NCBI GenBank assembly: GCA_030710605.1
Contig: CP092886.1
Location: forward strand, 50,646,390 to 50,710,389
DNA: 64,000 nucleotides
Source of the DNA: Cordylochernes scorpioides
Lineage: Eukaryota > Arthropoda > Arachnida > Pseudoscorpiones > Chernetidae
Direction: 5' to 3'
The position numbers and the translations under genes were made by a program. The notes under the pieces were generated by a model that was given only the letters and a program-made list of their open reading frames with translations, was not told the origin of the DNA and made no database searches. Positions 5,501 through 63,029 of this stretch are shown here, in pieces (positions within the stretch are counted from its first letter, which is position 1; each line of letters begins with the position of its first letter).

Positions 5501-5640
5501 TATATATATAAAGAGACAAGGTTCGCCTCTCCAGTCAAAATAGACATCTAAAACCAGACGCCATATATTGACCGTCGCCGCAACTAGCGGCCTCGGGTCG
5601 GTGACAAAGCCACAACACCAGCTTTGGCAAACTGAAAAAC

Positions 5641-5695
5641 GTCCACTTAGAGACGATGGTTTCGGCCTAATGGCCCTCGTCAGTCTAGGGCGGAC
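5641..5695 (-). ncRNA. Hammerhead ribozyme-like motif (type I), copy 1
   Basis: Minus strand order: stem I strand GTCCGCCCTAGA, core CTGACGA, stem II GGGCC-AUUA-GGCC, GAAA, short stem III CCATCG, cleavage triplet GUC (cut after the base opposite 5652), stem I return strand TCTAAGTGGAC. TAGA/TCTA and GTCC/GGAC pair around an internal loop, the arrangement natural hammerheads use for loop-loop contact. Stem II is one base out of register against the other arm, so activity is uncertain. Confidence 0.7.
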
Positions 5696-5971
5696 TTTAT
5701 TCCATGAGATCCACATGGGATCTAATGGAATCTTGACAATCTGCCAAAGAGGTGTTTAGTTGGCAAAGTGGCTGGGCCATATCTATGGCTAAAATATAGA
5801 TGGAAATTTTGCCGGGAGGAAATTGATCTAATGAGACATGGGTCGCCTCTCCCGTCAAAATTTCCATCTATATTTTAGCCATAGATATGGCCCAGCCACT
5901 TTGCTAGCTAAACACCTCTTTGGCAGACTGTCAAGATTCCATTAGATCCCGTGTGGATCTCATGGAATAAA

Positions 5972-6026
5972 GTCCGCCTTAGACTGACGAGGGCCATTAG
6001 CCCGAAGCCATGGTCTATAGGTGGAC
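5972..6026 (+). ncRNA. Hammerhead ribozyme-like motif (type I), copy 2
   Basis: Order: GTCCGCCTTAGA, CTGACGA (5984-5990), a perfect stem II GGGC-CATTA-GCCC (5991-6003), GAAG (6004-6007), palindromic CCATGG, GUC ending at 6015, then TATAGGTGGAC. The invariant GAAA has become GAAG and one stem I pair is broken, so this copy is probably inactive. It is the inverted partner of copy 1. Confidence 0.65.
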
Positions 6027-6224
6027 GTTTTTCAGTTTGCCAAAGCTGGTGTTGGGGCTTTGTCACCGACCCGAGGCCGCTAGTTGCGGCGACGGTCAAT
6101 AGATGGCGTCTGGTTTTAGACGTCTATTTTGACTGGAGAGGCGACCCTTGTCTCTTTAGATCAATTTCCTCCCGGCAAAATTTCCATATATATATATATA
6201 TATAACCTAGGTCCATAAAGGGTA

Positions 6225-14689: not shown

Positions 14690-14932
14690 TATAAAGATTG
14701 GCATTTCCTTATAGTGCAACTAAAATTTTATCATGGCTTGCACCATCTACCTGAATAAATAAAATATCAACCAATCGTGGGTTTTTAATTAAACCAGAAT
14801 TGTCCAAAATGTATTCCGGCAGATAGCGCAAGCCATCAGCAACTTTTAGTTGCACGATCAGGAGATGCCCCCTTTTCCCTTAGTTTATCCACCTGATCCC
14901 AGTACAATTTCACTTTTGTACTATTTTTTTGT
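14690..14932 (+). repeat. Fragment of hammerhead repeat family B
   Basis: Shares the outer parts of the repeats at 22240-22570 and 60790-61160: ATGGCTTG(C/T)(A/G)CCATCT, GATAGCGCAAGCCATCAGCAAC, TTAGTTGCACGATCAGGAGATGCC. The central hammerhead segment is missing. Confidence 0.65.
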
Positions 14933-17542: not shown

Positions 17543-17734
17543 AGGCAAATTTCAGGGTAGACGCGCCTAACCGAGTTATGCAAATGATGTAAAATGCGCA
17601 GCTCTCGTGCGCACATGGAGTAAGATATAGGGAAGGAACTTGCAGAAAGGACAGTATTCGTGTCGTTATTTCTTCAAGGAAAATCATTGCAGAAATTTTG
17701 TTCTTGTGTCAAAAGACACGTGTAATAACAGAGA

Positions 17735-18766
17735 ATGCCAGGTCATCGTAAACGGAGGCAGTTCAAGCAGACTGACGCTTTTACGAGGGGCATGGTGATC
17801 GGACTGAAAAGGGCAGGTTGGTCCATACGTCAAATCGCAGCTGATACACACCTTGGTGCGTCCACGGTGCACCGACTGTGGAGAAGATGGTTGGAACAAG
17901 GAAATGTGGCAATTTATAGGAATGTCGGTGCAACCAGAGTGACGTCAGCACGTGTGGATCGGCGTATCCTTCGACAAGCAGTGGCGGCCCCACAGGCCAC
18001 TTGTACCGCCATTCTGCAACATGTGCAAGACACCCTAGATCATTCCATCTCGACCAGAACCATTTCCCGTCGATTGGTTGCTAATGGCTTGCACTCATGC
18101 CGTCCGCTAAGAAGACTGCCATTGACCCCACCGAATAGGCGCCAACGTTTGGAATGGTGCCGGGCTAGATCGACGTGGATGACGGAATGGCACAGGGTCG
18201 TGTTTTCAGATGAGTCGCGTTTCTGCTTGTCCAGTGATAGTCGCCGTGTACGCGTGTGGCGTCGACGTGGAGAAAGGTCCAATCCGGCAGCAATTGTGGA
18301 ACGCCCCACCGTGCGACAACGTGGAATCATGGTTTGGGGCGCAATCGCGTATGATTCCAGGTCACCTTTACTTCGTATTCAGGGCACTATGACGGCCCAA
18401 CGATACGTTGATGATGTGCTGCGACCGGTGACACTCCCCTACCTTCAGGGTGTACCCAATGCCCTTTATCAGCAGGATAACGCCCGACCGCACACTGCTC
18501 GCATTAGTCAACAAGCTCTGCAATATGTACAGATGCTTCCCTGGCCACCGTACTCTCCTGATCTCTCACCAATCGAGCACGTCTGGGACATCATTGGACG
18601 CCGTTTGCGTGCCTTGCCACAGCCGCGTTCAGAAGACGAACTGTGGCAAATGGTTGAGAGGGAATGGAGAGCCATCCCTCAGGACGCCATCCGTACTCTG
18701 ATTGACTCTCTACCTAGACGTGTTTCTGCGTTCATCGCCGTCCGCGGTGGTCCTACTTGCTACTAA
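17735..18766 (+). CDS. Tc1-like transposase, intact
   Basis: A 343-residue cut-and-paste transposase acting at TA sites. The N-terminal half has two helix-turn-helix regions (GLKRAGWSIRQIAADTHLGASTVHRLWRRW cut short here: residues about 24-53) for inverted-repeat binding. The catalytic triad is visible: Asp in VVFSDESRF (about residue 157), Asp in YQQDNARPHTA (about 249), and Glu in SPDLSPIEHVW (about 282). Only 32 residues separate the second Asp from the Glu, against 34 in classical Tc1. The start ATG begins MPGHRKRRQ, a usual Tc1 opening, about 240 bp inside the left end. No stop or frameshift was seen, so it could be active. Confidence 0.95.
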   Translation: MPGHRKRRQFKQTDAFTRGMVIGLKRAGWSIRQIAADTHLGASTVHRLWRRWLEQGNVAIYRNVGATRVTSARVDRRILRQAVAAPQATCTAILQHVQDTLDHSISTRTISRRLVANGLHSCRPLRRLPLTPPNRRQRLEWCRARSTWMTEWHRVVFSDESRFCLSSDSRRVRVWRRRGERSNPAAIVERPTVRQRGIMVWGAIAYDSRSPLLRIQGTMTAQRYVDDVLRPVTLPYLQGVPNALYQQDNARPHTARISQQALQYVQMLPWPPYSPDLSPIEHVWDIIGRRLRALPQPRSEDELWQMVEREWRAIPQDAIRTLIDSLPRRVSAFIAVRGGPTCY

Positions 18767-21308: not shown

Positions 21309-21872
21309 ATAAAAAGAGCATTTCCTGACCGCTCACATTTTAGATGGCAGAGCGCCATCTAATGGAACAAAAATAAACTAAACGTTTATTTAGACTTGTT
21401 CCATAATATTTGGCCAACCCAATTTCTTGATAAACCAGGAAAAGCTAACCACTTTGAGGCTTCCTTAGAAATAAAAAATGGGTATTTAAGGTTAAATTTG
21501 CTTAATTACACTAAACGTGAGGGGAAAAAAACAAGGAAAGAATATTGCCACGTGGAAAATCAGGGAAGACAAACTTCAGGATGAGACAGCAATTTATTTA
21601 AGGAAAGAACAAACTATGAAGGATAAACCAAAGATAAGGAATGAGGGAAATTTACAGAGTAGCAAAATATAAACATAAAAATTATGCTCTGTTAATACTA
21701 GTGTAAATAAATAAATGTTTGTGTAAAATAATAAATACTTCGCTACAATATAAAAAGGTCAAGTGTTGATGGAACAAACCTCAATAAACGTTTAGTTTAT
21801 TTTTGTTCTACTAGATGGCGCTTTGCTGTAAAAAAATGTTCATGTGAGCGGTCAAGAAATGCCCCTTTTATA
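21309..21872. repeat. Element with about 80-bp inverted ends
   Basis: The ends are AGCATTTCCTGACCGCTCAC...GATGGCAGAGCGCCATCTA...AAACTAAACGTTTA (21318-21391) and the inverse at 21785-21868. The interior begins with TTGGCCAACCCAATTTCTTG and AGGAAAAGCTAACCAC. These resemble the interior of the hammerhead family B repeats (TTGGCCAAATACCC...AGAAAAGCTAAGCAC), so it may be a derivative that lost the ribozyme. The interior 62-codon frame is not recognisable. Confidence 0.65.
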
Positions 21873-22239: not shown

Positions 22240-22570
22240 TGAGAAAAATGCAACTCCTGATCGTGCAAATAAAAATTGCTGATGGCTTGTGCCATCTGTC
22301 GGAATAAATATCAACTAATCGCTGATTTATATTTATTCCAGAATTGGCCAAATACCCATTTTTGATTAATCAAGAAAAGCTAAGCACGTACGCGTCTCGG
22401 GCTGTTGGCCCTGATCAGCGTGGTACAAGCTGTACCTCAAAGACCAAACACTAGTCTTTCAGGCATCCTGAAAAATCATAAAATGGGTATTTATCAGCAA
22501 CTTTTATTTTCAAGATCAGGACATGCCTTTTTCATAATTTATCTACCTGATTACAGTACAATATCACTTT
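22240..22570 (-). repeat. Hammerhead repeat family B, copy
   Basis: Reverse-oriented relative of 60790-61160. Both contain GCTGATGGCTTG(T/C)GCCATCT, AATTGGCCAAATACCCAT, TTAATCAAGA, the hammerhead segment, CAAGCTGTACCTCAA and CCTGAAAAATCAT. A second GCAACTTTTATTTTCAAGAT end occurs at the right. No protein coding. Confidence 0.8.
22386..22426 (-). ncRNA. Hammerhead ribozyme-like motif, family B, mutated
   Basis: Minus strand: GTACCACG, CTGATCA (consensus CUGAUGA with one change; 22412-22418), perfect stem II GGGC-CAACA-GCCC, GAGA (from GAAA), palindromic CGCG, UA cleavage dinucleotide, CGTGC. Two core substitutions make cleavage unlikely, but the layout equals the intact copy at 60928-60969. 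Confidence 0.6.
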
Positions 22571-23690
22571 TTTGTACCATTTTTTAAATATTAATATACT
22601 ACAAATAAAAATATATTGAGCTCTATTCTATCTCATAAATTTTATATTTATAAAATAAAGGTATGTCCACTTCTCTGTGTTCCACTACCACACATGACAA
22701 ATACTCCCTCAATCATTAGGACGATATCTGGCACCCTGTCGGGCAGTTGAGATCTGCGTAGAATGGAAGACTACGCAGGATGATTGAAGGATCCAGTTCA
22801 GATATAAATTGCGCTACAGTGAGCAGAGGGATTGGGAGAGAGCATTTCATGGCGCAGAGATCAGGTGCTGGCTTGAGTCGATATTTCAGGAAGAGGTCCG
22901 GCAGCATGACTGCATTAAAGATAACCGCCTCGATTTTGAAAAGGCTGTTTTATACCATCAAGATGGATTAAAACTATCATAATTCTGGGCGTATCGTTAT
23001 GTCGCCTTACCGCTGACTTTCAGGAAAACATTTTTCTAGGACCAAGACCTCTTCATTCCCTTCTCTGCCTCACTTTAACGGTGCTTATTGAATGATTAAA
23101 GGCGATATAGAGGTATGATTAGGTTGGTAAACACAATATATTACATATATGTGCTAATATTTTAATGAGCAGGGGCAAATTATGGACATTCAAATATCAA
23201 TATTTTATATGATTTTTGAAAAATAGAAAATACGCCATTGTTCAACCCTTTTAACACTTGGTGGCACCACAAATTCGAACAATCTATAGGCACAATTGCG
23301 CAACTAACGAAAGATTTATTTAATCTTTCAAAATACTGATTTTAATAATCATGAAATTATCCAGGAACATTTTTATTAACCCATGCACCTGGAGCGTACA
23401 ATATCCAGGTATGTAGTTCAAGACGTTTTGGGAAGTTCAAGATTTTCAAACTACTTAAAAATAACATTTTACGATTTTAGAAACGAATTGATTGTTATGC
23501 AACTGATTGACACTACTATCTCAAGGTTTTACCATATATACATCATTTCAATTGTTGCTAGATATAAAACCTCATCTTACACCTAATTAACAATAAAATA
23601 AAAAATCCCTTTCCATATATATTTTTCTCAATCTTCAAACATCTTTTTATATATAGTTCCTTTAGATATTTTTATAAAGAGAGAGAGAGA
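22571..23690. other. No identified gene; GC-richer patch 22690-22980
   Basis: A 63-codon frame runs on each strand over 22716-22971. The higher GC and lack of AT runs suggest an old transposon coding fragment, but I recognise no motif. The rest is AT-rich. Confidence 0.35.
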
Positions 23691-36574: not shown

Positions 36575-36999
36575 TGTAATATGGATAATTCTCTCCTCGT
36601 TGTATGACAAGATATCAGAGAGGCAGAGGTCCCAGGGTGAAGTTGTGGAAAGGTGGATGGATTCCGGCTGCGGGAGGATGGCCCACGTGTCTGGGGGTAG
36701 ACAAAGTCCAGACGACATTCCAACGGGGGAGTGGGGGAGAACGGCCGTGACGAGGAGACGCGGCAAGTTGGCTAGAGGAGGTGGGCCCCGACACGGTGTG
36801 GATTAACAAGAGCAGGACGAGGAGGAACCTACCTGGGGCGGCATTGAAGGCAAGTGTTCATCTCCCATGTATAGTTATTGATATCCCTTTTAAAGTTGTG
36901 GTAATAAATCTATAGTACTAAGCTGTATCCAAAACGAACCCACATTGTCTTCTCAGAAACCTTGCACGCAAACATCGACGGCTGAGAAGAGTCGTAACA
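36575..36999 (+). repeat. 5' LTR of the 36.6-kb Gypsy
   Basis: 425 bp, TGTAATATGG...GTCGTAACA, apparently identical to 41721-42145. AATAAA occurs about 95 bp before its right end and could serve as the polyadenylation signal. Short open frames within it are identical in both LTRs and are not genes. Confidence 0.96.
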
Positions 37000-37001
37000 A
37001 C

Positions 37002-37019
37002 TGGTGTCAGAAGTGGGAT
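37002..37019 (+). other. Primer-binding site of the 36.6-kb Gypsy
   Basis: TGGTGTCAGAAGTGGGAT, two bases after the LTR, the expected place and TGG start for a tRNA 3'-end complement. It differs from the TGGCGACGAG site of the other two Gypsy elements, so this is a different lineage. Confidence 0.85.
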
Positions 37020-37059
37020 ACAGCTTAGTTATCTTTTCAATTTCTGAAAATATTGGCCT

Positions 37060-38043
37060 ATGCTAACCCGGAAGAAAATGGAAGATTTTAATAAAGTACT
37101 CGAAGAGATTAATAAGAAAATAGGCTCTATACAGAGTGATATGGAGTCCCGATTGAGAAGGCTCGAGAATAATGTAGCTGATGTCCCTGTAGCCACACCC
37201 CTGTCTTTTAGAATAGCGGACAATTCTCCTCAGTTAGAAACTACTGAATGCTTTTCAAAAATCAAGCCTCCTACCTACGACGGACAGACTTCGTGGAAGT
37301 GCTTTAAGACCCAGTTCGAAGTGGTGGCCTTGGGCAATCGCTGGAACTCCAGTGAGAAGGCAATAAACCTGGCCGCATCGCTCCGAGGTTCAGCCACTGA
37401 GGTTCTACAATCCCGGCCACTAGAACAATCATTGGACTATGAATGTCTGGTCCATGCCCTGACTCTACGCTTCGGAGATGACATTTTGCAGCCCTACCAT
37501 GTCGTGAAATTAAAGAATCGCCGCCAGAAGCGCGACGAGACGCTGCAGGAGTTGGCAGCAGATGTCGAAAAACTAGCGAGGTTAGCCTTCCCTGATTGCC
37601 CCCGCCATGTTCAAGATCTGCTGGCACATCAAAATTTCGTGGATGCCATCGAGGACCCTGAGTGTCAACAATCAGTGCGCATGTCTGAAGCCAAGACGTT
37701 GCAGGAGGCGTTGATCCACTCCTTGAAATTCGAGGCAGCCCGTGATGCGACAAGAGGCTATCAGAAGGTAGTGCGCGTCATGAAGACCGACGAATCTCAA
37801 AAAGACGGCGACATTAAAGAAGCAATTTCTCAGTTACAGAGGACAGTAGAAGAAATGAAAAAAAGTATGTCTTTCTCAGAATCAGCCCCGGGGACCTATC
37901 GCCAGCGCACCTACAGACCCAATGACAAAACTATCTGCTGGAACTGTGGTAAACCAGGGCACATTAGGGCTAATTGCAGAGTACGGCAGGCACCTTTGGA
38001 GAGGGGCAATACCATTCCGAAATATTCGGGAAACGAAAATTAG
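37060..38043 (+). CDS. gag: Gypsy Gag protein
   Basis: Intact 327-residue Gag that assembles the virus-like particle and packages RNA. The N-terminus has a short coiled-coil stretch (residues about 7-45). The middle, about 75-215, has the capsid-type layout of Gypsy Gag (WKCFKTQFEVVA, then LRFGDD and LQELAADVEKLARLAFP). A single zinc knuckle CWNCGKPGHIRANC sits near residues 295-308. The start ATG is the first in-frame one after the primer site. The stop TAG at 38041-38043 lies within the stem of the frameshift signal. Confidence 0.93.
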   Translation: MLTRKKMEDFNKVLEEINKKIGSIQSDMESRLRRLENNVADVPVATPLSFRIADNSPQLETTECFSKIKPPTYDGQTSWKCFKTQFEVVALGNRWNSSEKAINLAASLRGSATEVLQSRPLEQSLDYECLVHALTLRFGDDILQPYHVVKLKNRRQKRDETLQELAADVEKLARLAFPDCPRHVQDLLAHQNFVDAIEDPECQQSVRMSEAKTLQEALIHSLKFEAARDATRGYQKVVRVMKTDESQKDGDIKEAISQLQRTVEEMKKSMSFSESAPGTYRQRTYRPNDKTICWNCGKPGHIRANCRVRQAPLERGNTIPKYSGNEN

Positions 38044-39403
38044 CCAGCCTTACGGGGCCTGGGCTGGCTATGCGATGTGACGATGCCTCAGGAAAAATTA
38101 TCAGAGTCTCGAGTCTCCAGGGAGGCTCCAATGAGCTGGCCACAGAAGGACTTGTCAACGGGTTGCCTTGTCGAATGGTGATTGATTCTGGTGCCAACGT
38201 CACCTTGCTCCGTGTCGATTTAGCTCAGAGAATGGAGTCAATATCAAGGAGGATTCCTGTGTCGAACGAGCTGGTGTTGCAAACAGCCACTGGAGAACAA
38301 GCAAAAGTCTATGGTCAAGTAGTGCTGAAATTCCAGATCGGAAACAACTTGTTCAGCCACCTTGGGTACCTCGCTGACATCAAAGACGACTGCCTCATCG
38401 GCTTGGACGTGCTTCGCAAATTTGGATTCACAATTGACTTCCAAGAGAATGTACTCAAGATTGCGGGAGAAGAGATTCCCCTAGTGGGTTCGAGGAGTTC
38501 GGCGACCAATAAAGTCCTGAAGGTAATACTCAAATCTGACGTTAAAATTCCTCCGAGGAGTGAATGCATTCTTGAAGGACGTCTAACTGCCTCTCTCGGG
38601 GTTCCCCAGCTGCTGATTGTGGAAGAGAATGGCCAGGAGTTTGGTCAAAAAGGACTCTTGTTAGCTCGGACTCTGTGTAAATCTGATCAAAGTAACATCC
38701 CGATTAGAGTGGTCAATCTCCTCGACTCCGCAAAAACCCTCGGAAAAGGGACTGAAATAGCTATAGCTGAGCCTGTTACAAATGTGGCCCATTGCACAAC
38801 TGTCGAAAACTTGGATAAAAGCCCTTGTTCCAGTTTGATTCCAGGCCATCTGCAGGAGCTATTAGAAGGAACGCGAGAGGGGCTGAACTGGATACAACAA
38901 AAGAAGCTTGAACATCTACTCTGCCAATATGAAGACGTATTCGCTACCAGCCCCAAAGAGGTTGGGCGGACGAATGTGACGCAGCATCGGATTGATACAG
39001 GAGGAGCTACTCCTGTCAAGCAGCTCCCAAGAAGATTGCCCATGACGAGGAGGGACGAGGTTGACAAACTGATTGAGGAAATGGCAGAACAAGATGTCAT
39101 CGAGCCTTCATCTAGTCCTTGGGCATCTCCCGTTGTGCTTGTAAAGAAAAAAGATGGCTCCACACGATTCTGTGTGGATTACCGACGTCTAAATGATCTG
39201 ACCAAAAAGGATTCCTACCCTCTGCCCCGAATTGATGCTACGCTCGACACCCTTTCCGGATCGCAGTGGTTCAGCACTTTGGATCTCAAAAGCGGCTACT
39301 GGCAAGTCAGCATTCACCCAGAAGACAGAGAAAAGACAGCCTTCACGACAGGAAACGGGCTTTGGCAGTTCAAGGTAATGCCATTTGGGTTATGCAACGC
39401 CCC
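37974..39403 (+). CDS. pol: Gypsy Pol part 1: protease and N-terminal RT
   Basis: The -1 frame relative to gag, entered by ribosomal frameshifting at 38028-38034; the listed start is the frame opening, not an initiation codon. Aspartic protease active site MVIDSGANVTLL at about residue 68-79. RT blocks follow: KKDGSTRFCVDYRRLN, then WFSTLDLKSGYWQV with the first catalytic Asp, then KVMPFGLCNAP. Just after this the frame is lost at the C run 39400-39404 and runs 23 wrong codons to a stop at 39476. RT continues in the next frame. Frameshift as sequenced, so this copy makes no full RT unless the extra C is a sequencing error. Confidence 0.9.
38028..38070 (+). promoter_or_regulatory. Programmed -1 ribosomal frameshift signal
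   Basis: Slippery heptamer GGGAAAC (38028-38034) is in the correct phase in gag (G GGA AAC). A 6-nt spacer GAAAAT follows, then a perfect 9-bp stem TAGCCAGCC (38041-38049) / GGCTGGCTA (38062-38070) with a 12-nt loop. The gag stop is the first triplet of the stem. Slipping back one base leads straight into the protease frame. Confidence 0.9.
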
Positions 39404-41706
39404 CTGCCACCTTCGAGCGTCTGATGGAGACGGTGCTGCAAGGGATTCCTTTGGAGACATGCCTAGTCTATCTTGATGACATTATTGTGATGGGAAAGAG
39501 TTTTGATGAGCATCTAATTAATCTTGAAAGAGTCCTACAAAAGATTCGAGGAGCAAGATTGAAGTTGAATCCGAGAAAGTGCAAACTCTTCAAAGAGAAA
39601 GTTCGTTACCTGGGCCATGTGATTTCGCGCCAAGGAATACAGACTGATCCAGACCGAACTGAGACTGTTCGGCAATGGCCTGTACCAAGGGATGTACACC
39701 AATTGAGAAGTTTTCTAGGCTTGTGCAGCTATTATAGAAGATTTGTTCCGGGGTTTTCAAACATCGCGAGACCTTTGCACCGACTAACGGAGTCTGGCCG
39801 CCCCTTCAGTTGGACTATTGACTGCGAAAGGGCGATGGATAAACTGAAGCAGGCCCTGTCTTCTCCGCCGATGCTGGCCTACCCTGATCCAGGCGAGCCA
39901 TTTATTTTGGACACAGATGCCAGCAACACTGGGATTGGAGCCGTTCTATCTCAAACCCAAGATGGAGTAGAACGTGTCATCGCTTACTTCAGTAAAACTC
40001 TGTCCAAACCTGAGAGAAACTACTGTGTAACCCGCAGAGAGTTGCTGGCAATCGTCAAATCGATTGAGCATTTCCACCATTATTTATACGGGCAGAAGTT
40101 TCTTCTTAGAACAGACCATGCAGCTCTACGATGGCTGTTGAACTTCAAGAGCCCAGAGGGACAGCTAGCTAGATGGATTCAGCGACTTCAAGAGTATGAC
40201 ATGGAGATTCAACACCGGAAAGGGAAATCTCACGGGAACGCAGATGCTCTCTCGAGGCGACCATGCCCAGTGAACTGCAAGCATTGTTCCAAGGCAGAGA
40301 CACAAGCTGAGCTCAACATTCGTAAGCTTTCCCTCGCGGAAGAACTCAAGTTAGACGAATGGAGCCCCGAGGAAATGAGAAAATCTCAGTTTGAAGACGC
40401 TGATCTTCGGCCTGTCATGAATTGGCTCAATGCCGGGACCAACAGGCCAGCATGGGAAGATGTTGCATCCTGCAGCCCAATCACCAAGAGCTATTGGTCC
40501 TTATGGGACTCGCTGGAATTTCGAGGTGGTGTTCTCTACCGGAAATGGGAGAGTGATGATGGTCAACACATTGAATGGAAGATGATCCTTCCCCAATCAC
40601 GAGTACCTTCCGTCCTCAAAGAGCTGCACAATAGCCCCAGCGGAGGACATTTTGGGATTGCAAAGACATTGGGGAAAGTGAAAGAACGCTTTTACTGGGC
40701 TGGATGCCGTGCCAGTGTTGAAAAATGGGTACGACAGTGTACGGAATGTGCTTCCAGAAAAGGACCAAAGACAAGATCGAGAGCCAAACTCAAGACTTAC
40801 AACGTGGGAGCCCCGTTCGAGAGGATCGCTATCGACATCATGGGACCATTGCCGCGAAGTGACAAGGGGAACCGCTATATCCTAGTTGCAATGGATTATT
40901 TCACCAAATGGCCTGAAGCCTTTCCGCTTGCTGATCAAGAAGCTGAAACAGTTGCTGAAACCTTAATCAGCCAGTTCTTCAGTAGGTTCGGTGTCCCCAT
41001 GCAGATCCACACTGACCAAGGGAGAAATTTCGAGTCGAGACTTTTTGCCCAAATGTGTAAACTTCTCGGAAGCCATAAAACAAGGACTACTCCCTTACAC
41101 CCCCAGTCCGACGGCATGGTCGAAAGATTTAATAGAACCTTAGCCAGTCAACTTAGTCTCTTCGTCGCCCAGAACCAAAGAGACTGGGACAGTCAACTGC
41201 CTATTCTTCTGATGGCCTACCGATCCTCAGTCCATGAAACCACGGGTTACTCGCCGGCCAAGATGCTCTTTGGAAGGAAATTAAAGCTTCCCTGTGATCT
41301 GATCTTTGGATGCCCCAATAGTATTGGGGAAGGCTCGAATGAATTTGTTGACCGACTCCATTCAAGACTTGAAAAAGTGCATCGATGGGCCAGAGAGAAA
41401 TTAGAGATTGCAAGCGAAGCAATGAAAGTGAGGTATGACACCCACGCGTGCGGGAACGACCTTCAAGAGGGAGGACTAGTCTGGTTGTACAACCCGAAAA
41501 GGAAGAAAGGTCTCTCGCCTAAGCTACAAAAATCTTGGGAAGGCCTCTTTCGAATTGTGAAGAAGTTAAATGATGTCGTATTTAGGATACAACGCTCATC
41601 CCACTCTAAACCAAAGGTTGTTCATTTCAACAGACTAGCCCCGTTCAAAGAGCCATTGATCAGCGCTGCTGGGGAGGTCCGTCCTTTTCGGGACGAAAAG
41701 AATTAA
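39400..41706 (+). CDS. pol: Gypsy Pol part 2: RT palm, RNase H, integrase
   Basis: 773-codon frame (first Met at 39385). RT catalytic YLDD at residues 29-32. RNase H region with LDTDASNTGIGAVLS near 175-189. Integrase zinc domain H415, H422, C452, C455. Integrase catalytic triad D484 (IDIMG), D544 (IHTDQG) and E580 (GMVERFN), with exactly 35 residues between the last two. A C-terminal module (LSPKLQKSWEGLFRIVKKLNDVVFRI region, about residues 705-731) corresponds to the GPY/F domain. It ends at 41706, just before the purine tract. The whole is uninterrupted and well conserved. It is separated from part 1 only by the one-base lesion. Confidence 0.93.
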   Translation, partial: PPATFERLMETVLQGIPLETCLVYLDDIIVMGKSFDEHLINLERVLQKIRGARLKLNPRKCKLFKEKVRYLGHVISRQGIQTDPDRTETVRQWPVPRDVHQLRSFLGLCSYYRRFVPGFSNIARPLHRLTESGRPFSWTIDCERAMDKLKQALSSPPMLAYPDPGEPFILDTDASNTGIGAVLSQTQDGVERVIAYFSKTLSKPERNYCVTRRELLAIVKSIEHFHHYLYGQKFLLRTDHAALRWLLNFKSPEGQLARWIQRLQEYDMEIQHRKGKSHGNADALSRRPCPVNCKHCSKAETQAELNIRKLSLAEELKLDEWSPEEMRKSQFEDADLRPVMNWLNAGTNRPAWEDVASCSPITKSYWSLWDSLEFRGGVLYRKWESDDGQHIEWKMILPQSRVPSVLKELHNSPSGGHFGIAKTLGKVKERFYWAGCRASVEKWVRQCTECASRKGPKTRSRAKLKTYNVGAPFERIAIDIMGPLPRSDKGNRYILVAMDYFTKWPEAFPLADQEAETVAETLISQFFSRFGVPMQIHTDQGRNFESRLFAQMCKLLGSHKTRTTPLHPQSDGMVERFNRTLASQLSLFVAQNQRDWDSQLPILLMAYRSSVHETTGYSPAKMLFGRKLKLPCDLIFGCPNSIGEGSNEFVDRLHSRLEKVHRWAREKLEIASEAMKVRYDTHACGNDLQEGGLVWLYNPKRKKGLSPKLQKSWEGLFRIVKKLNDVVFRIQRSSHSKPKVVHFNRLAPFKEPLISAAGEVRPFRDEKN

Positions 41707-41707
41707 T

Positions 41708-41720
41708 GGAAGGGGGGCAG
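41708..41720 (+). other. Polypurine tract
   Basis: GGAAGGGGGGCAG directly before the 3' LTR; primes plus-strand DNA synthesis. Confidence 0.85.
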
Positions 41721-42145
41721 TGTAATATGGATAATTCTCTCCTCGTTGTATGACAAGATATCAGAGAGGCAGAGGTCCCAGGGTGAAGTTGTGGAAAGGT
41801 GGATGGATTCCGGCTGCGGGAGGATGGCCCACGTGTCTGGGGGTAGACAAAGTCCAGACGACATTCCAACGGGGGAGTGGGGGAGAACGGCCGTGACGAG
41901 GAGACGCGGCAAGTTGGCTAGAGGAGGTGGGCCCCGACACGGTGTGGATTAACAAGAGCAGGACGAGGAGGAACCTACCTGGGGCGGCATTGAAGGCAAG
42001 TGTTCATCTCCCATGTATAGTTATTGATATCCCTTTTAAAGTTGTGGTAATAAATCTATAGTACTAAGCTGTATCCAAAACGAACCCACATTGTCTTCTC
42101 AGAAACCTTGCACGCAAACATCGACGGCTGAGAAGAGTCGTAACA
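41721..42145 (+). repeat. 3' LTR of the 36.6-kb Gypsy
   Basis: Apparently identical to 36575-36999; followed by the ATAT target duplication at 42146-42149. Confidence 0.96.
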
Positions 42146-44787: not shown

Positions 44788-45291
44788 CTACTGAGGCACG
44801 TGTTGACTTACGCATTTGAGAAGTTGATGAAAACTTGAAGCATGAGCATATGTAAGACTTGAAGCACATGTTGATGTCTGTGCCTTAGAGCGTTTTGGCA
44901 CCCTTAGTTCTGCAGAAACTGGCTTTGTTATTCGAGCAGGTATAGGAGAATATTCATTTGTTGATTCCTTTTTTTTGGAAAACTTTGGTCTTGGCCTTTT
45001 GTTTAACATTTTCTTTTTTATATAGATCCTTCAATTTCTTTTGAACTTTCAAAATTTTACTATTATACTTTAAAATTAGTTTTTCTCCAACCCACTCATC
45101 CCAATTTTTACTCCAGCCTTGATAGTGAAGTAATATATTGGCTCTTTGTCATCCATATCAAGTTTTATACATCTTGCCTCATAAAGTAAAGTACCATGAT
45201 AACAAAGAACCTTTTCTTTTTCATGATATTTGAAACTTAAAGTATCCTTTACTTGGATTAGCTTTTTTATTTGATTGAGTTTTCGACATAT
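44788..45291 (-). pseudogene. MRG15-like chromo-barrel gene, decayed copy
   Basis: Minus strand from an ATG at 45291. The reading passes through FKY..KEKVLCYHG-like, YEARCIKLDM-like and GWSKNWDEWVGEK-like blocks in two or three frames. It then runs into the 73-codon frame 44788-45009, whose KPVSAELRVPKRSK matches KPVSEKPNVPKRSK of the intact gene at 62106. Order and spacing match the first two thirds of that gene. Several single-base shifts and stops make it non-functional. No introns, suggesting a retrocopy or a duplicate of an intronless parent. Confidence 0.8.
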
Positions 45292-55967: not shown

Positions 55968-56176
55968 TGCAATGTTTCCACAGATAAGACTTGAAAATAG
56001 AATATATCTTTAATGCCAAGAAACAAACAAAGTTAAAACAATTCCATACTAGAAAAATAGTCAACTGCTAAAAACACAAACACTATATATATGCATATAT
56101 ACACAATTATCATCATCAACTCTGTGACAACAAATAAATAAAAACAAATATTAAATTAATTCGCCAATACATCACA
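55968..56176 (-). repeat. 3' LTR of the 56-60 kb Gypsy
   Basis: 209 bp; begins TGTGATGTATTGGCG on the minus strand. It differs from the other LTR by a few substitutions and a short indel near 56062, so this insertion is older than the one at 36.6 kb. Confidence 0.9.
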
Positions 56177-56187
56177 CCATCTTCCTC

Positions 56188-57420
56188 CTACAAGCCTTGA
56201 TATCGCACAGGAGGTCTCCGATCCCTTGGAGGGTTTCTTCTTGGCAGTGGCCTCTCCTCCGTCCGGGCTTCTTTGTCTGAGGAACACGCGGATTCCCTTG
56301 GGCTGCTCCCAATCTCCTCACCTTGGTCCCCGGACACTGGATCCTGCGGCAATCCAGCTGTTTCCGACGAAAACGATTCTCTGTCCCTCCGGCTGTTCAT
56401 ACTCTCAGGAGCCATCCATATTGGGTCATCTTCCTCCTCTCTTTTCTCTCTGGCCTCATCTCCCTCTTCACCACTAGTCCATCTTCTCCTTATCTGATCT
56501 CGGTGGTAGGTCTTCACCTGTCCATTTATCAAAACTGTATAGACTCTGCTCCCCTTTCTGCCCACTATTCGCCCTGGAATCCATCCGACACCTCTAAAAT
56601 TCTTACACCACACCTTATCGTCCACCTCGAACTCCTCTTGGCCTCTTCCTCGATCATACCTCATCTGCCTGGCCTGTCGTTCCCTCACCCTATTGTCCAG
56701 GCTCTGGTGTATCAATGTCAGTCTGGTCCGCAGAGACCGACCCATAAACAGCTCTGATGGGGTCTTCCCAGTTGTCTCATGCGGCGTGCATCGATACGTG
56801 AGGAGAATTCTTGACAGTGTATCTTGAATGGTATCTTCAAACTTCCTTTTATTTTTTTCCAAGGCCATCTTTATCAATTGAACCGCTCTTTCCGCTAAAC
56901 CATTACTCTGTGGATGGTATGCTGGAATCAGAGTTTGTCTGACTCCATTTCTCTCGAAAAAACTCTTCATCTCTACCCCTGTAAACTGTGGGCCATTATC
57001 CGACACCACTTCCTCTGGTAACCCATACGCTGAAAACAATCTTCTTAACTGCTCAATCGTCTTTCTTGCGGTTATCTCTCTCATCGGGATCGCCTCGACC
57101 CATTTTGAGTGGCTATCCACCACAATTAACAAATTCACTCCATCTTTAAATGCAAAATCCATATGGATCCGTTGCCAGGGCCTGGTTGCCCACACCCACG
57201 GTCTCCAGTTTACTTTACTTGGGCCTGTCTGAGTTTGCTGGCAATTTTTACACCCATTTACCATGCATTCAATCTGGTTGTCAAGATTCGGCCACCAAAA
57301 ATGCGACCTAGCAACCGCCTTCATTTTGCCCATCCCCGAATGGGTCTCGTGTAGACAACTCAACATATTTTTCCTAAGAGAAGACGGGATGATCACTCGC
57401 ATTCCCCACACAATAAGCAT
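56188..57420 (-). pseudogene. Gypsy Pol: integrase
   Basis: 410-codon frame. Zinc domain H24/H27, C57, C60. Catalytic D88 (HMDFAF), D141 (VSDNGPQF) and E177 (GLAERAV), with 35 residues between the last two. The C-terminal tail is charged. The RT-RNase H frame ends 28 bp inside its start, in another frame, so a one-base indel lies in 57393-57420. Confidence 0.92.
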
Positions 57421-58890
57421 TCCCCGTCCATAGTTAACTCCAACTTTCTTTGAAAGTAGGGTCTGAGGTATTCCCCAACTCTTTCAGGCCAGCCTTGCTG
57501 CGTATAGCGCTTCACCACTGACAATACTTCATCTTTTTTAGTTTCCACACCTATTTCTGCTGCTGTAGCCGGCAAATCTTCCACATATGATAATATGAAC
57601 GTTTGATTCAAAACCGGTGTTTCGTCACTCTCTACTGGCAACCGTGAGAGAAGGTCTGCGTTTCCATGACCTTGAGTTCTTCGGAATTTAATTTCATATG
57701 TATAAGCCGCCAAAGTCAGTCCCCATCTCTGCAATCTTGAAGTAGACAAAGTGGGAATCCCTGCTCTCGGCCCCAAAATAGACACCAGGGGTTTATGATC
57801 TGTAATCAGGGTAAATTGTCTTCCATAGATAAACTGGTGGAACTTAGTCACACCATATATTATTGCTAGAGCTTCTCTTTCTATTTGTGAATAATTACGT
57901 TCGGCCCCGGAAAGTGTTCGTGAGGCAAACATGATTGGTTTCTCTTGGCCCTCGATAACATGGGACAGCACCGCCCCCACTCCAATCTGAGATGCGTCCG
58001 TGGCCAAAGATAAAGGTAACGTGGCATCATATGGCACCAACACTTTCTCGGAGGTAATTCTCCTTTTACACTCCGAGATCGCCTCCTCACACTCCCCTGT
58101 CCACTTCCAATAATTATTCTTTTTCAGCAGCTTGTGAAGTGGCTCCAACAGCTCTGGCAAATTCGGAATAAACTTTCCATAATAGTTCACTAATCCCAGA
58201 AAAGATCTCAATTCCGAGACATTTGTCGGGCTTTTGGCTTTCTGTAGCCCTTGTATCTTGTCCTCTAAAGGCCGAATACCATCTTCTTTGATGAGATGTC
58301 CCAAATACTGTATTTCTCTTCGCAGAAATTCACATTTTTCCCTTTTTAATTTTATGTTGTGCTTCTGCAACCGAACAAAAATAGTTTTTAATACTGCCAT
58401 ATGTTCCTCCACTGACGCCGTGGATACGAGTACATCGTCAATGTAACAAATAACCCCATTAATTCCCGCCAATATTCTATCCATAACTGACTGAAAAAAA
58501 CTAGGGGCATTTGCCAATCCAAAAGGCATTATTTTAAACCTAAAAAGCCCCTTATGCGTATTAATAGTCAGGAGTGGCTGGGTGCTAGGGTTTACCTCTA
58601 ATTGAAGGTATGCATTGCTCAGATCTAGTTTAGAAAAATACTTCCCTCTAGCCAATAAGGAAAACAGGTCCTGCTGAGTAGGCAGCGGATAGGCCGCAGT
58701 ATCCAAAAACCTATTTAAAGTCACTTTGAAATCACAGCAAATCCTAAACTCTTTATTCTTCTTTGGCACAACCACCACTGGAGTTGCCCACTTGCTGCTG
58801 GGTACTTGATACAAGTAGTCCTTCTCCACCATTCTTTCTAGTACCTCGTTTACCGCCGTTCTAATTGCAAAGGGAACTGGTCGGGCCTAT
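57393..58890 (-). pseudogene. Gypsy Pol: reverse transcriptase and RNase H
   Basis: 479-codon frame from the Met at 58832, open upstream to about 58890. RT blocks WATPVVVVPKKN, YFSKLDLSNAYLQL, IMPFGLANAPS and the catalytic CYIDDVLVS (YIDD at 130-133). RNase H with LATDASQIGVGAVLSH. Ends frameshifted into integrase. Confidence 0.92.
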
Positions 58891-59898
58891 TATTACATCC
58901 TGAATATTCACTGCAAACGTGAATCCCTTTATCGGATCTGTTGTCTCCCCAAACACAACCTGGTGTTCACTCAATAATTCCGCCAACGTGTCCTCCAAAG
59001 GCATCTGATTCACAAAATAATTTCCAATTTTCAAAACATTGATCCATTCTCTCCCCAACAAGGCCTTCCTTTCTCCTCTCACCACGACAGCTCTAAGCTT
59101 AGCGATCGTTCCCCGAAAATCGACCTTGACATCTATTTCACCCAGAATCGGTACCACAGTTCCGTCATAGGTCTTAACAATTATTCCCGCTTCTTTTACC
59201 TGCACGTCTGGGAGGTATCTCTTGAAATCCTTCTCCGATATTAAAGTCAGACAGCAACCCGTATCGATTTCAAAAGCCATCAAAGTGTCCTCTACTCTCA
59301 TCTTAATCACATAGGGAGGGTCATTCGTAGCATACTTGACTCTATAATCATACGTCCTCATGAAGACCATTCTTTGAACGGATTCTTCCTCCTCCTGATC
59401 CTCGATTTGATTAATCTTTCTCTGGTTCAGAAACCGGCTCACCTGTCTTTCGCTTGTATGTTCCCCACGGCTCCTGCAGATGGTTGCCAAGAGACCTCTT
59501 TTCCCGCATCTGAAACAGGTCGCCTCTCTAAATCTGCATAAGTCTTTATGCAACCTCCCGCAATGTATGCACTTTCTCTTTTGCTCTCTATTATATCTAT
59601 TCCCGACTTCTGCGCGTATTTTGTCCACGCTCTCTGCAGGCTCATTGACATGGAATATTCTGGTATTTTTTTCTGCTGCATCCATCGACAACGCAATTTC
59701 AACTACTCTTGCCAACGGCAAATCTCCTTCAGACAAGATCCTCCTCTGGATTTTTGCATTTCTCAATCCGCACACCAATTTGTCTCTTAAGGATTCCTTT
59801 AAAAATTCCACAAATCCACACGTTGAGGCTAGCCGCTTGATTTCCACCAGATATTCTGAAACACTTTCCGTTTCCTTTTGTATTCTTCCAAAAAACAT
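58861..59898 (-). pseudogene. Gypsy Gag C-terminus and protease
   Basis: 345-codon frame. Capsid C-terminal region (SVSEYLVEIKRLASTCGF, LVCGLRN), then zinc knuckles CIHCGRLHKDLC and CFRCGKRGLLATIC, where the second has lost its His. Protease active site AFEIDTGCCLTLI near residue 210. Runs out of frame near 58870-58890 before RT. Confidence 0.9.
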
Positions 59899-59912
59899 GA
59901 ATCTCTCTACGA

Positions 59913-60140
59913 TTATAGATCGCTTTGGGGAAAATATTCAACCAGTTTCTCAATCAATTCTTCATATTTATACTCTTTAGGCAACTTTGGGCTACATACA
60001 TTTTTCAATGTTTCATACGCCTTCCCGCCAATTAGCGTCAACAAATAGGCTTTTTTCTTTTCTTCACTTGCTTCTTCTAGAATTAGAAACTGCTCCAAAC
60101 GCTCGATAAATGAGCAAAAATTTTCATTTTTTTTCTTCAA
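59913..60140 (-). pseudogene. Gypsy Gag N-terminus
   Basis: 75 codons (FIERLEQFLILEEASEEKKKAYLLTLIG..., cut here) corresponding to the start of the capsid domain, followed by a frameshift near 59905 into the larger gag frame. Confidence 0.82.
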
Positions 60141-60285: not shown

Positions 60286-60493
60286 TGCAATGTTTCCACA
60301 GATAAGACTTGAAAATAGAATATATTTTTAATCCCAAAAAACAAACAAAGTTAAAACAATTCCATATTAGAAAAATAATAACTGCTAAAAACACAAACAC
60401 TATATATATGCATATATACACAATTATCATCATCAACTCTGTGACAACAAATAAATAAAAACAAATATTAAATTAATTCGCCAATACATCACA
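60286..60493 (-). repeat. 5' LTR of the 56-60 kb Gypsy
   Basis: 208 bp, partner of 55968-56176; the primer site follows one base inside. Confidence 0.9.
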
Positions 60494-60789
60494 CTAATCA
60501 ATAAAGTTCATTTTTCAAATCTATGAAGTAATTCTATCAATCGTCAGTTATATATTGGTACACACATTGTGATAAATAAAACTTCAATTTGCGAGTTTAT
60601 CGCGAACAGCTATTGAATTATGAACCAAGGCAACATTTTTGTAAACAGGAATAACACTCTTTGATTATATTTTCTGGTATTTTCTTCTACTTCATATACT
60701 CCCTTTTATTGAAAAGTAACTGGATTTATTTTCTTAGAAACGATTTATATTGTGAAAAAATAGTACAAATGTGATATTGTACTGGGATA

Positions 60790-61160
60790 AGGTGCATAGA
60801 CTATGAAAAGAGCAGCTCCTTATCGTGTAAGGTCGCAGTCTCACGCAATTCTGGCCTTAACTACCCGTTTCATGATTTTTCAGGATTCCTGAATGACCAG
60901 TTTATTGGTCGTTGAGGTACAGCTTGCACCACGCTGATGAGGGCCAACAGCTCGAAACGCGTCCGTGGTTAACGTTTCTTGTTTAATCAAGAATGGGTAT
61001 TTGGCCAATTCTGTAATAAATAAAAATCAACGAGAATAGTTGATATTTTTTTCCGATAGATGGCGCAAGCCATCAGCAACTTTCAGTTGCACGATAACTA
61101 GATGCCTTTTTCATGATTTATATTGTGTTCTAAAGAATCAATCACTTTTATAAAAACTTC
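60790..61160 (+). repeat. Hammerhead repeat family B, best copy
   Basis: Opposite-oriented relative of 22240-22570. It contains CAGCTCCTTATCGTG, TTTTTCAGGATTCCTGAA, TTGAGGTACAGCTTGCACC, the hammerhead core, then TTAATCAAGAATGGGTATTT, GGCCAATTCTG, GATGGCGCAAGCCATCAGC, and TTTCAGTTGCACGATAACTA. No ORF. Confidence 0.82.
60928..60969 (+). ncRNA. Hammerhead ribozyme, type I, consensus match
   Basis: Stem I ACCACG (60928-60933), core CTGATGA (60934-60940), stem II GGGC-CAACA-GCTC (one G-U pair), GAAA (60954-60957), stem III CG/CG within the palindrome ACGCGT, cleavage triplet GUC ending at 60963, stem I return strand CGTGGT (60964-60969), fully complementary to ACCACG. All invariant bases are present. 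With only two stem III pairs and a 2-nt loop, single units would be weak, but two copies could share ACGCGU as a double hammerhead. Cleavage is predicted after 60963. Confidence 0.82.
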
Positions 61161-61169
61161 ATCTTTCAG

Positions 61170-62105
61170 AATAAGGTGCTAGGATATTTACTAATCTACA
61201 ATTGTGTCTTAATAGGATCATTTTACTCTATCTTTATTAATGGTAAAACTCTAAATCCCACAATCAGACAAATGGGTCCCAGGTATAAAATAAAATATGA
61301 TATCCCTAAATACATTATTTTCTCTCATTTCTTGCTCATGGTTAAAGATGAAAATCACCTTCAAAAATAATTTAAACAAATATATACACTCATTTTAAAT
61401 TTATATCTTCAATATATTTTAAACATAGAAATATAGATAATTATTTATTTAATTCATCCCCCACCTATAAATAGTTTCAGTGTTGCGCAATTATTTGCTA
61501 TCGTTGCTTTAAACAGTCTTTCCATTGAGTGTTTTTATCATTTTTACCGATATTTTAATATAATTAGAAATCCTTTTGAAATGTATTAGAATAAGGTATA
61601 TATCGTTTGAAACTACAAGTACAGTAGATTTATATTTCGTCACACTAGGAATTGAGCTAACAAAATTAATTTACATGTGAAATTTATTTACCTAAAGATT
61701 AAAATCTGAATAAAGATATGTTTTATTTGAAAGTGTGTGTACAATTTTCAAAAAATAATTTAAATAAGCCTTATTACATTACATTTAATATTATATATTA
61801 ATTTACATTAAATTTAATATTTATAATTTTATTTCGGAAAATATATTTTGAAATTTCAACGATATTTTTGGCACTCTATGGAGTAAAAACAAGCATATCA
61901 AACCCGCCACTTTGGAAGAATGCACCGCCTTTTGTTTACTTTTATAAAATAGATCTTTCTTTCGTTTGGGAAAAAAATCGATTAAACAATTTTTCTAGCA
62001 CTCTTTTTAAGTATTTCACGTATAGAGTAATAATTATTTTTATATAATATATATTTTTGATATTAAAAAATGTGAGAAAAGGCTCAAAAAAGCAACTATT
62101 CAAAT
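61170..62105. other. Upstream region of the MRG15-like ORF
   Basis: AT-rich, no coding. TATATAATATATATTTTTG at about 62040-62058 lies 50-65 bp before the ORF and could act as a TATA-like element, though such sequence is common here. Confidence 0.35.
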
Positions 62106-63029
62106 ATGACCAGAAGACGCTCAGCCAAAAAGGCAATTCCAATAAAATATACATCTAAATTCAAATACCAAGATAAAGAAAAGGTACTTTGTTATCATGG
62201 ACATTTAATTTATGAAGCAAAATGTTTAAAACTTGATATTAGAGACAACGAGCCAAAATATTACATACATTACAATGGCTGGAGTAAAAATTGGGATGAG
62301 TGGGTACCAGAGAGTCGAATTTTAAAGTACAATGATAAAAATGTGACCACCCAAAAGGAAATTGAAACTTTACATACAAAAGAAAATGGGAAGCAAAAGT
62401 CCAAGTCCATAGCTTCCAAAAAAATAAAACCAACAAAAGAAAGTTCTACGGTTTTTACTCTAAAAGAAAAGCCATCTCCTGTCAAAAAGCCAGTTTCTGA
62501 AAAACCAAATGTGCCAAAACGTTCAAAATCATGTTCCAAGTTGCCTGCATCAACTCGTGCACTTACTTGTGCTTCAGCACATTCATCATCACCTATTCCA
62601 ACCCGTGCATCAACACGTTCCTCAACAGCGTGTTTATTTGATGGAAGCCAAACTGCTATACGAAAAAAAGTTACAGATGAGCCAGCCACCCAAAAAAAAG
62701 TTCCTACCCCAACAGTAAAACCAGTCCGTGCTTCTTCACACAGAGCACCTCTTGCTTCACAAAGCACATTAGCTTCTCTCTCATTGCCTCCACCAGCTCC
62801 TACTACAGCAAGTACTCCAGCTCGTGGTACTCGTGCTTCAACAAAAACAAATTCTTTGGCAGCAGAATTTGCATTAGCAGCACGCACTTCACAGCCAAAG
62901 GGTGCATCAACCTGTGCCCCCCGACCTGCCCCTGCTTGTAAACCAAGAAAGAGAAAAAGTGCAGGAGTTTACCTACGTCCAAGAAAGAGAGCTAAGTATG
63001 TCCCTCCTGAGAAACCAAAGCCTTTTTAA
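62106..63029 (+). CDS. MRG15-like chromo-barrel protein lacking MRG domain
   Basis: Intact single-exon ORF of 307 residues. Residues about 18-85 form a chromo-barrel very close to that of MRG15/MORF4L1 (KEKVLCYHG, YEAKCLKLDI, YYIHYNGWSKNWDEWVPE, RILKY), including the aromatic residues that cage methyl-lysine (H3K36me in MRG15). The remainder is a low-complexity Ser/Thr/Ala/Pro/Arg tail with repeated RAST and CAS motifs, ending in a basic PRKRAKYVPPEKPKPF. The approximately 170-residue MRG domain of MRG15, which binds partner proteins, is missing, and the stop is clean. It probably acts, if expressed, as a nuclear chromatin reader without complex assembly. It may be a retrocopy-derived lineage gene, or the first exon of a longer gene. 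Confidence 0.8.
   Translation: MTRRRSAKKAIPIKYTSKFKYQDKEKVLCYHGHLIYEAKCLKLDIRDNEPKYYIHYNGWSKNWDEWVPESRILKYNDKNVTTQKEIETLHTKENGKQKSKSIASKKIKPTKESSTVFTLKEKPSPVKKPVSEKPNVPKRSKSCSKLPASTRALTCASAHSSSPIPTRASTRSSTACLFDGSQTAIRKKVTDEPATQKKVPTPTVKPVRASSHRAPLASQSTLASLSLPPPAPTTASTPARGTRASTKTNSLAAEFALAARTSQPKGASTCAPRPAPACKPRKRKSAGVYLRPRKRAKYVPPEKPKPF

Follow-up and report, generated by a model that had tools for sequence, protein, structure and literature searches.

The window analysed here, a 64-kb stretch of the genome of the pseudoscorpion Cordylochernes scorpioides, contains a type I hammerhead ribozyme with an intact core, which lies within a 360-bp insertion (copy A) that is bounded by a perfect target-site duplication of 13 bp (Table 1). 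Comparison with copies elsewhere in the genome reveals copy A as a rearranged version of a unit that is 338 nt long. Two further copies, one with a decayed hammerhead (copy B) and one without a hammerhead (copy C), are present in the same window together with a weaker family piece near 21352-21452, and for both copies the candidate duplications are only 8 bp long or less certain. The three changes in the hammerhead of copy B should damage it, judging from the letters, and no hammerhead model matched at this position. With these copies in the window and many more across the genome, the initial annotation of this DNA was right to call the repeat interspersed.

Table 1. Features of the hammerhead-bearing repeat family in the 64-kb window.
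Feature	Position	Strand	Description or basis
Type I hammerhead ribozyme, core intact	60928-60969	+	Letters, covariance models, family covariation
Predicted hammerhead cleavage site	60963/60964	+
Hammerhead segment ACCACG	60928-60933	+
Hammerhead segment CTGATGA	60934-60940	+
Hammerhead segment GGGC/CAACA/GCTC	60941-60953	+
Hammerhead segment GAAA	60954-60957	+
Hammerhead segment CGCG	60958-60961	+
Hammerhead segment TC	60962-60963	+
Hammerhead segment CGTGGT	60964-60969	+
Outer stem Ib, 5' strand	60921-60924	+	AGCT; letters and pair count in the alignment
Outer stem Ib, 3' strand	60971-60974	+	AACG in copy A, usually AGCT
Copy A, insertion	60755-61114	+	360 bp, minimal head-to-head product
Copy A, left arm	about 60755-60830		Inverted
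Copy A, right arm	about 60831-61114		Direct
Target-site duplication, left	60742-60754	+	GATTTATATTGTG
Target-site duplication, right	61115-61127	+	GATTTATATTGTG
Copy A, outer end at the T6 site of the unit	60755-60763	-	CTATTTTTT, inverted
Copy A, outer end at the T5 site of the unit	61107-61114	+	TTTTTCAT
Copy B	22243-22595	-	79% identity to copy A across the matched part
Copy B, decayed hammerhead	22383-22424	-	CTGATCA, GAGA and one stem I mismatch; stem II GGGC/GCCC intact
Copy C	14700-14929	-	Short, head-to-head, without hammerhead

The window also holds other repeats and open frames. Identical direct repeats of 300 nt (36575-36874 and 41721-42020) flank Gypsy-type frames at 37048-41706, and the element at 36575-42020 is probably a very young LTR retrotransposon. 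A second pair of LTR-like repeats (55968-56177 and 60286-60494, 96-100% alike) flanks Gypsy-type frames at 56188-59937, and stops about 260 nt short of the hammerhead-bearing insertion. An inverted repeat with 313-nt arms that are 95% complementary and 30 nt apart is located at 5506-6161, and for an open Tc1-like transposase frame at 17729-18766 a search at E≤0.001 finds 2735 relatives, of which the best 120 show 81-99% identity and all belong to Cordylochernes scorpioides. A chromodomain-like frame at 62076-63029, which we take to resemble MRG15, has a similar inverted piece at 44971-45267 (75-79%). In a pattern search of viral contigs two contigs matched, L001 and L002.

For the hammerhead of copy A, re-reading of the letters reproduces exactly the sequence and coordinates that had been claimed, with every invariant core base in place, six Watson-Crick pairs out of six in stem I and a stem II of four pairs, one of which is G.U. 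The term consensus, which had also been applied to it, is slightly too strong in view of this G.U pair and of a stem Ib that is damaged relative to the family. The altered 3' strand deprives stem Ib of two pairs, so that copy A may cleave more slowly than related copies. Stem III consists of two pairs and a 2-nt loop, and since the sequence ACGCGT is a palindrome, an RNA dimer could build a longer stem III. The covariance-model check suggested at the outset came out negative, as all copies scanned score under the curated cut-offs: at the copy A site RF00163 (Hammerhead_1) gives 21.5 bits against a gathering threshold of 34 and RF02275 (HH9) gives 23.5 bits against 52, while the best HH9 score among other copies, scanned at four loci, is 31.3 bits. 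At the gathering cut-off Rfam reports no hammerhead anywhere in the window, and when the pattern was relaxed to at least four pairs in stem I and three in stem II, only the site of copy A was found there. The hammerhead is accepted despite these scores because it recurs genome-wide and its stems show compensatory changes, and because of this family covariation we hold the curated hammerhead models to be too narrow.

The unit (unit U, defined from locus L030) places the hammerhead at U105-146 and the cut after U140; for a second search and for folding it was rotated to run from cut to cut (unit R). It is AT-rich and counts as non-coding, its single ATG frame of at least 40 aa being 44 aa long. 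Between one cut and the next, the unit RNA has a folding energy of -116 kcal/mol, and stems I, Ib and II are present in the minimum-energy fold of the linear molecule; when it is folded as a circle, part of the hammerhead core pairs otherwise. In the genome assembly (2.62 Gb in 24 contigs, with the window at C24:50646390-50710389), a search with copy A gave 88 matches at 30 loci (4851 first-look candidates, 40 scored), and a search with unit R gave 195 matches (1145 first-look candidates, 40 scored). The unit occurs singly and in head-to-tail arrays, in which repeats of 337-340 bp abut and whole units are 98-100% identical in the unit R search; among the matches listed, arrays reach at least 13 units in one orientation. 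The family is abundant, as 14 family pieces were found in 9 of twenty 10-kb stretches sampled at round coordinates on 13 contigs, covering 2475 bases or 1.24%, which extrapolates, with a wide error, to about 1.8 x 10^5 pieces (order 10^5) and to roughly 1% of the genome. Four hammerheads with a full core and at least four pairs in stem I and three in stem II occur in these stretches plus L053, all of them family members, which would scale to about 5 x 10^4 in the genome. A second retrozyme subfamily, with a GCGC/GCGC stem II in its hammerhead, was noticed at L022:2459-2914 and L038:6176-6777, and its copies in L022 lie about 311 bp apart. Also in L022, a hairpin at 2081-2200 matches the MIR399 model with 40.6 bits, under the cut-off of 57, and is probably an inverted repeat.

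Retrozymes are recognised by a type I hammerhead whose core and stems are conserved, which is present here though below the Rfam cut-offs, by a tandem repeat of 150-450 bp, which corresponds to the arrays of about 338 bp, by a GC content below 45%, which in the unit is 0.41, and by a highly self-paired RNA with a free hammerhead, which is what the linear unit gives (z -8.3). The assignment of the repeat to the metazoan non-LTR retrozymes is thus well supported, and the earlier proposal of a candidate non-autonomous ribozyme-bearing element is supported by a non-coding hammerhead unit that occurs singly or in tandem and often has target-site duplications.

The structure of the ribozyme is backed by comparison between copies. 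In 36 of 41 distinct matches from the first loci, which were selected by similarity, the core is kept; four of the other five are truncated by a junction, and L011 has one altered core base. The helices covary between subfamilies: stem II is GGGC/GCCC in some and GCGC/GCGC in others, A-U is replaced by U-A as the outer stem I pair, and AGCC/GGCU and AGUC/GACU take the place of AGCU/AGCU in stem Ib. In an alignment of 19 rows, picked from 63 hits to span the diversity and leaving out near-identical copies, short hits and the decayed copy L018, 92.3% of the cells pair, and nine pairs, all within the hammerhead, account for 28 cells with changes on both sides. Shuffles give 8.1 such cells (sd 3.3) and none of 500 reaches 28, a comparison in which relatedness alone can surpass the shuffles; slid partners give at most two, and the weak one among five measures, further pair types, is reached by 39 of 500 shuffles. 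With regard to a possible tertiary contact between loops 1 and 2, stem Ib covaries, and the HH9 alignment covers the loops. Going by these alignments, the hammerhead structure is under selection.

That hammerhead-like letters arose by chance in a MITE or another DNA transposon has accordingly next to no probability, even though copies A and B have inverted arms, every model stays below threshold and a loose descriptor (core, at least six, four and two pairs in stems I, II and III, G.U allowed) is hit six times over 3217 versions of the window shuffled with dinucleotides preserved. The covariation between subfamilies and the tandem units speak against it, and a plain chance motif was rejected on the covariation across the 19 sequences. 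A MITE with terminal inverted repeats was rejected as well, since more copies show two arms of one unit; in place of the terminal inverted repeats and fixed-length duplications of a DNA transposon, the insertions have duplications that vary in length, and their ends lie at two separate sites in the unit.

The orientation of the copies follows a rule. Among 39 loci clustered from the 150 matches listed of 195, 19 read minus-then-plus, 13 are plus only, 7 are minus only and none is plus-then-minus, and of 35 sequenced insertions ten are both-strand clusters, every one of them minus-then-plus (one locus, C21, belongs to both sets). In L016 and L017, two loci counted as single-strand, inspection by eye shows a mere 10-12 nt of inverted sequence on the left, located at a start site. 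The order minus-then-plus means that the 5' sides of the RNA meet centrally and the 3' sides point outward. In the count of ends, clusters whose best identity was under 90% were excluded, as were ends lying about 5 nt or less from the locus edge, and L029, L031 and L032, which overlap L030, were left out of this count and of the 35 insertions. Of the outer RNA-3' ends, 32 of 36 fall at two fixed U-tract sites, 22 at T5 (mostly TTTTTC[AT]TA, about U287-297) and 10 at T6 (TTTTTTCA[CT], U333 to U5), fractions that are not unbiased because loci L003-L032 were selected with a query (copy A) that shares about U17-U283 with the unit, a choice biased towards copies with 3' ends past U283 and 5' ends ahead of U17. 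At the hammerhead cut lie none of the 36 outer 3' ends and none of the 19 outer 5' ends. Four of these 5' ends are at U295-299, one full turn from T5 in T5-ended copies, and six are at U331-338, where L014 and L021 are T6-ended and complete one full turn and L011, L013, L018 and L019 are T5-ended and stop at the T6 site.

The search with unit R gave 58 outer ends, with 26 at R194-204, which is the T6 site, 4 at R50-51 and 28 that stop at R338 and are unjudgeable because the search window clips some ends. The remaining ends are less sure, C21 alone having been verified on sequence; as its right end, listed to R50, actually extends to the T5 site, the reading that all outer ends from this search are genuine was dropped. 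In all six mixed inserts that have both ends at a site (L003, L007, L020, L022, L025 and C21), one end is at T5 and one at T6 by eye. The inner junctions of the 19 mixed loci vary in unit position; nine share 1-3 nt, which resembles joining by microhomology, three overlap by 7-27, and seven are separated by 8-182 bases without a match among those listed. One inner end, in L020, lies at U141, which equals the hammerhead cut and is what would be expected from a template that is cut and linear. At 10 of the 35 insertions the flanks carry direct repeats of 10-14 nt, compared with 4 of 400 placements chosen at random. The ten include AT-rich repeats possibly due to chance, such as that of L027; at the other 25 no direct repeat of at least 10 nt is present.

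These observations bear on two further explanations. It is very improbable that the repeat is a satellite or inverted repeat that owes its form to recombination, through unequal crossing-over or inversion, or to errors in the assembly. The near-identical arrays described above are the kind of sequence that recombination can expand and that is hard to assemble; against such an origin stand the duplications round single copies, the differing flanks and inner junctions and the one-way orientation in 19 of 19 mixed loci. It is unlikely, to a lesser degree, that a LINE moves a SINE-like hammerhead element and that the inverted left parts reflect ordinary twin priming. Duplications of 10-14 bp fit insertion of the LINE type, some frames in the window resemble by eye a non-LTR reverse transcriptase, and the schistosome SMalpha element, which has a type I hammerhead, has been called a SINE-like retrotransposon (PMC8490949). 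However, no A-tail is seen at the insertion ends printed, and both outer ends of the mixed inserts mostly lie at the fixed start sites. In LINE twin priming the 3' end of the RNA is found at one end only. A Pol III SINE was considered too and is weakened by the fact that the terminator-like T-runs at the ends also occur inside tandem units, as preferred ends.

We consider it probable instead that the hammerhead processes the RNA, which becomes circular, and that a Penelope-type enzyme copies it from both cut strands of the target. Tandem copies would be transcribed, the hammerhead would cut the transcript into 338-nt units, these would be circularised, and the circular or multimeric unit RNA would be the template for target-primed reverse transcription. 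Copying would begin at either of the two fixed U-tract sites within the unit, both cut target strands would be extended until the two cDNA arms converge and join head-to-head, and more than one turn round the template would produce tandem units. Copies that cross the hammerhead cut and end elsewhere require a template that was circular, longer than one unit or uncut. The preferred internal ends at either side point to an enzyme that initiates within the RNA and extends each of the two cut strands. The presumed RNA cleavage and RNA circle are not the sole way to the observed copies, most of which would be explained as well by multimeric or plainly uncut RNA. Regarding the manner of copying, the chances are about even that both strands are copied simultaneously by a Penelope-type enzyme with each arm rolling round the retrozyme circle, so that arrays would be born head-to-head, usually with one arm per U-tract start site.

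The insertions were most likely made by the enzyme of a Penelope-like element. In Anolis, the enzyme of the Penelope-like element PAc cuts both the top and the bottom strand and extends them, initiates at internal positions on both strands alike, prefers AT-rich DNA and leaves an optional 'tail', which is the stretch bounded by two start sites (PMC11167929). The hammerhead of PAc is dispensable for insertion in vitro (PMC11167929), which counts against a necessary role of cleavage. For Penelope in the rotifer Adineta, head-to-head inserts are described as the most frequent form; one of the inverted pLTRs may bear a 31-bp tail, and duplications of 8-10 bp are mentioned (PMC3846280). Insertions of the pseudoscorpion unit have the same traits, being head-to-head in 19 of 19 and 10 of 10 mixed loci (with C21 in both sets) and having fixed internal starts with an optional tail at 32 of 36 outer 3' ends in the biased sample. 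Penelope-like elements are named as a strong candidate source of the enzyme by the retrozyme authors themselves, because hammerheads, tandem copies and co-existence are common to both (PMC7229834).

Penelope-like sequences are indeed present in the host, as judged from the twenty sampled stretches and from named proteins. Compared with eight Penelope-like proteins, four stretches give coding matches at E≤1e-4, namely L038 and L046, where the matches are weak (27-40% identity), L045, where a copy shows 85-98% identity to the annotated host protein P0139, and L044, which with its continuation L053 holds a decayed copy that has a reverse transcriptase (RVT_1, 2.3e-07) and a weak GIY-YIG match (E 0.018) under the Pfam cut-off. 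The named host proteins P0121, P0139, P0140 and P0151 belong to the Penelope-like group, and three unnamed relatives carry both reverse transcriptase and GIY-YIG domains. The Penelope reverse transcriptase piece at L044:9449-10000 also gives a Pfam lipocalin match right at the cut-off, which is probably due to chance.

The unit itself could be the pseudo-LTR of such an element and the arrays pLTR-only derivatives, a possibility that we regard as quite improbable. The pLTRs of Penelope are reported to bear type I hammerheads, tails, inverted copies and duplications (PMC3846280, PMC7761336). However, the eight Penelope-like proteins have no match at E≤1e-4 in the window, as the initial annotation had stated for a Penelope reverse transcriptase, or in L003-L032 with flanks of about 1.5 kb, and no frame with reverse transcriptase and GIY-YIG flanks the unit in the same sequences. 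Moreover, the hammerheads of pLTRs are described as minimal, without helix III or tertiary loops (PMC7761336), while the unit keeps stems Ib and III. Of the two families that had been named for such ribozymes, the retrozyme-like one therefore fits better than a Penelope LTR.

The family bears on how metazoan retrozymes re-enter DNA, and by which enzyme. Here, many young insertions in one genome carry a fingerprint of two preferred start sites, priming on both strands and a target-site duplication, which is directly testable with the Penelope enzyme of the host itself. The family is also an instance of an abundant hammerhead, by extrapolation about 1% of the genome, of which every copy scanned lies under the curated cut-offs.

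Among known systems, plant LTR retrozymes (PMC4918200) are, as far as described there, likewise non-autonomous and hammerhead-bearing with a proposed spread via circular RNA, but theirs are type III hammerheads in LTRs, with a PBS and a PPT (PMC7229834), whereas the pseudoscorpion unit has a type I hammerhead and no LTR structure was seen. The schistosome SMalpha/W elements are alike in being a SINE-like repeat of 335 bp with a type I hammerhead, and one W-element monomer is mentioned with a possible target-site duplication (PMC8490949); they belong to a different phylum, and the likeness is drawn from their description. Penelope-like elements, as portrayed in PMC11167929 and PMC3846280, have in common with the unit the head-to-head inserts, internal starts of reverse transcription, the optional tail, short duplications, a type I hammerhead and, by eye only, AT-rich flanks, but the unit has no long frame, its hammerhead is canonical and not minimal, and no RT-EN frame lies alongside. 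The metazoan non-LTR retrozymes of PMC7229834 share with the unit, by that account, a type I hammerhead, tandem units of 150-450 bp with a GC content below 45%, a non-coding and strongly self-paired sequence and a high copy number, up to 120,000 copies in the axolotl. The unit of Cordylochernes scorpioides differs from them in its arachnid host and in the common head-to-head insertion from two preferred starts. The terms inverted, head-to-head, target site and twin are absent from the main text of PMC7229834 (supplements apart), 'inverted' occurs only among the references in PMC7761336, and no description of head-to-head retrozyme insertions was found in the literature searched, which comprised few subscription papers and no supplements. 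The kind of element is thus a known one, and new here is its insertion signature, a head-to-head orientation with two fixed U-tract ends.
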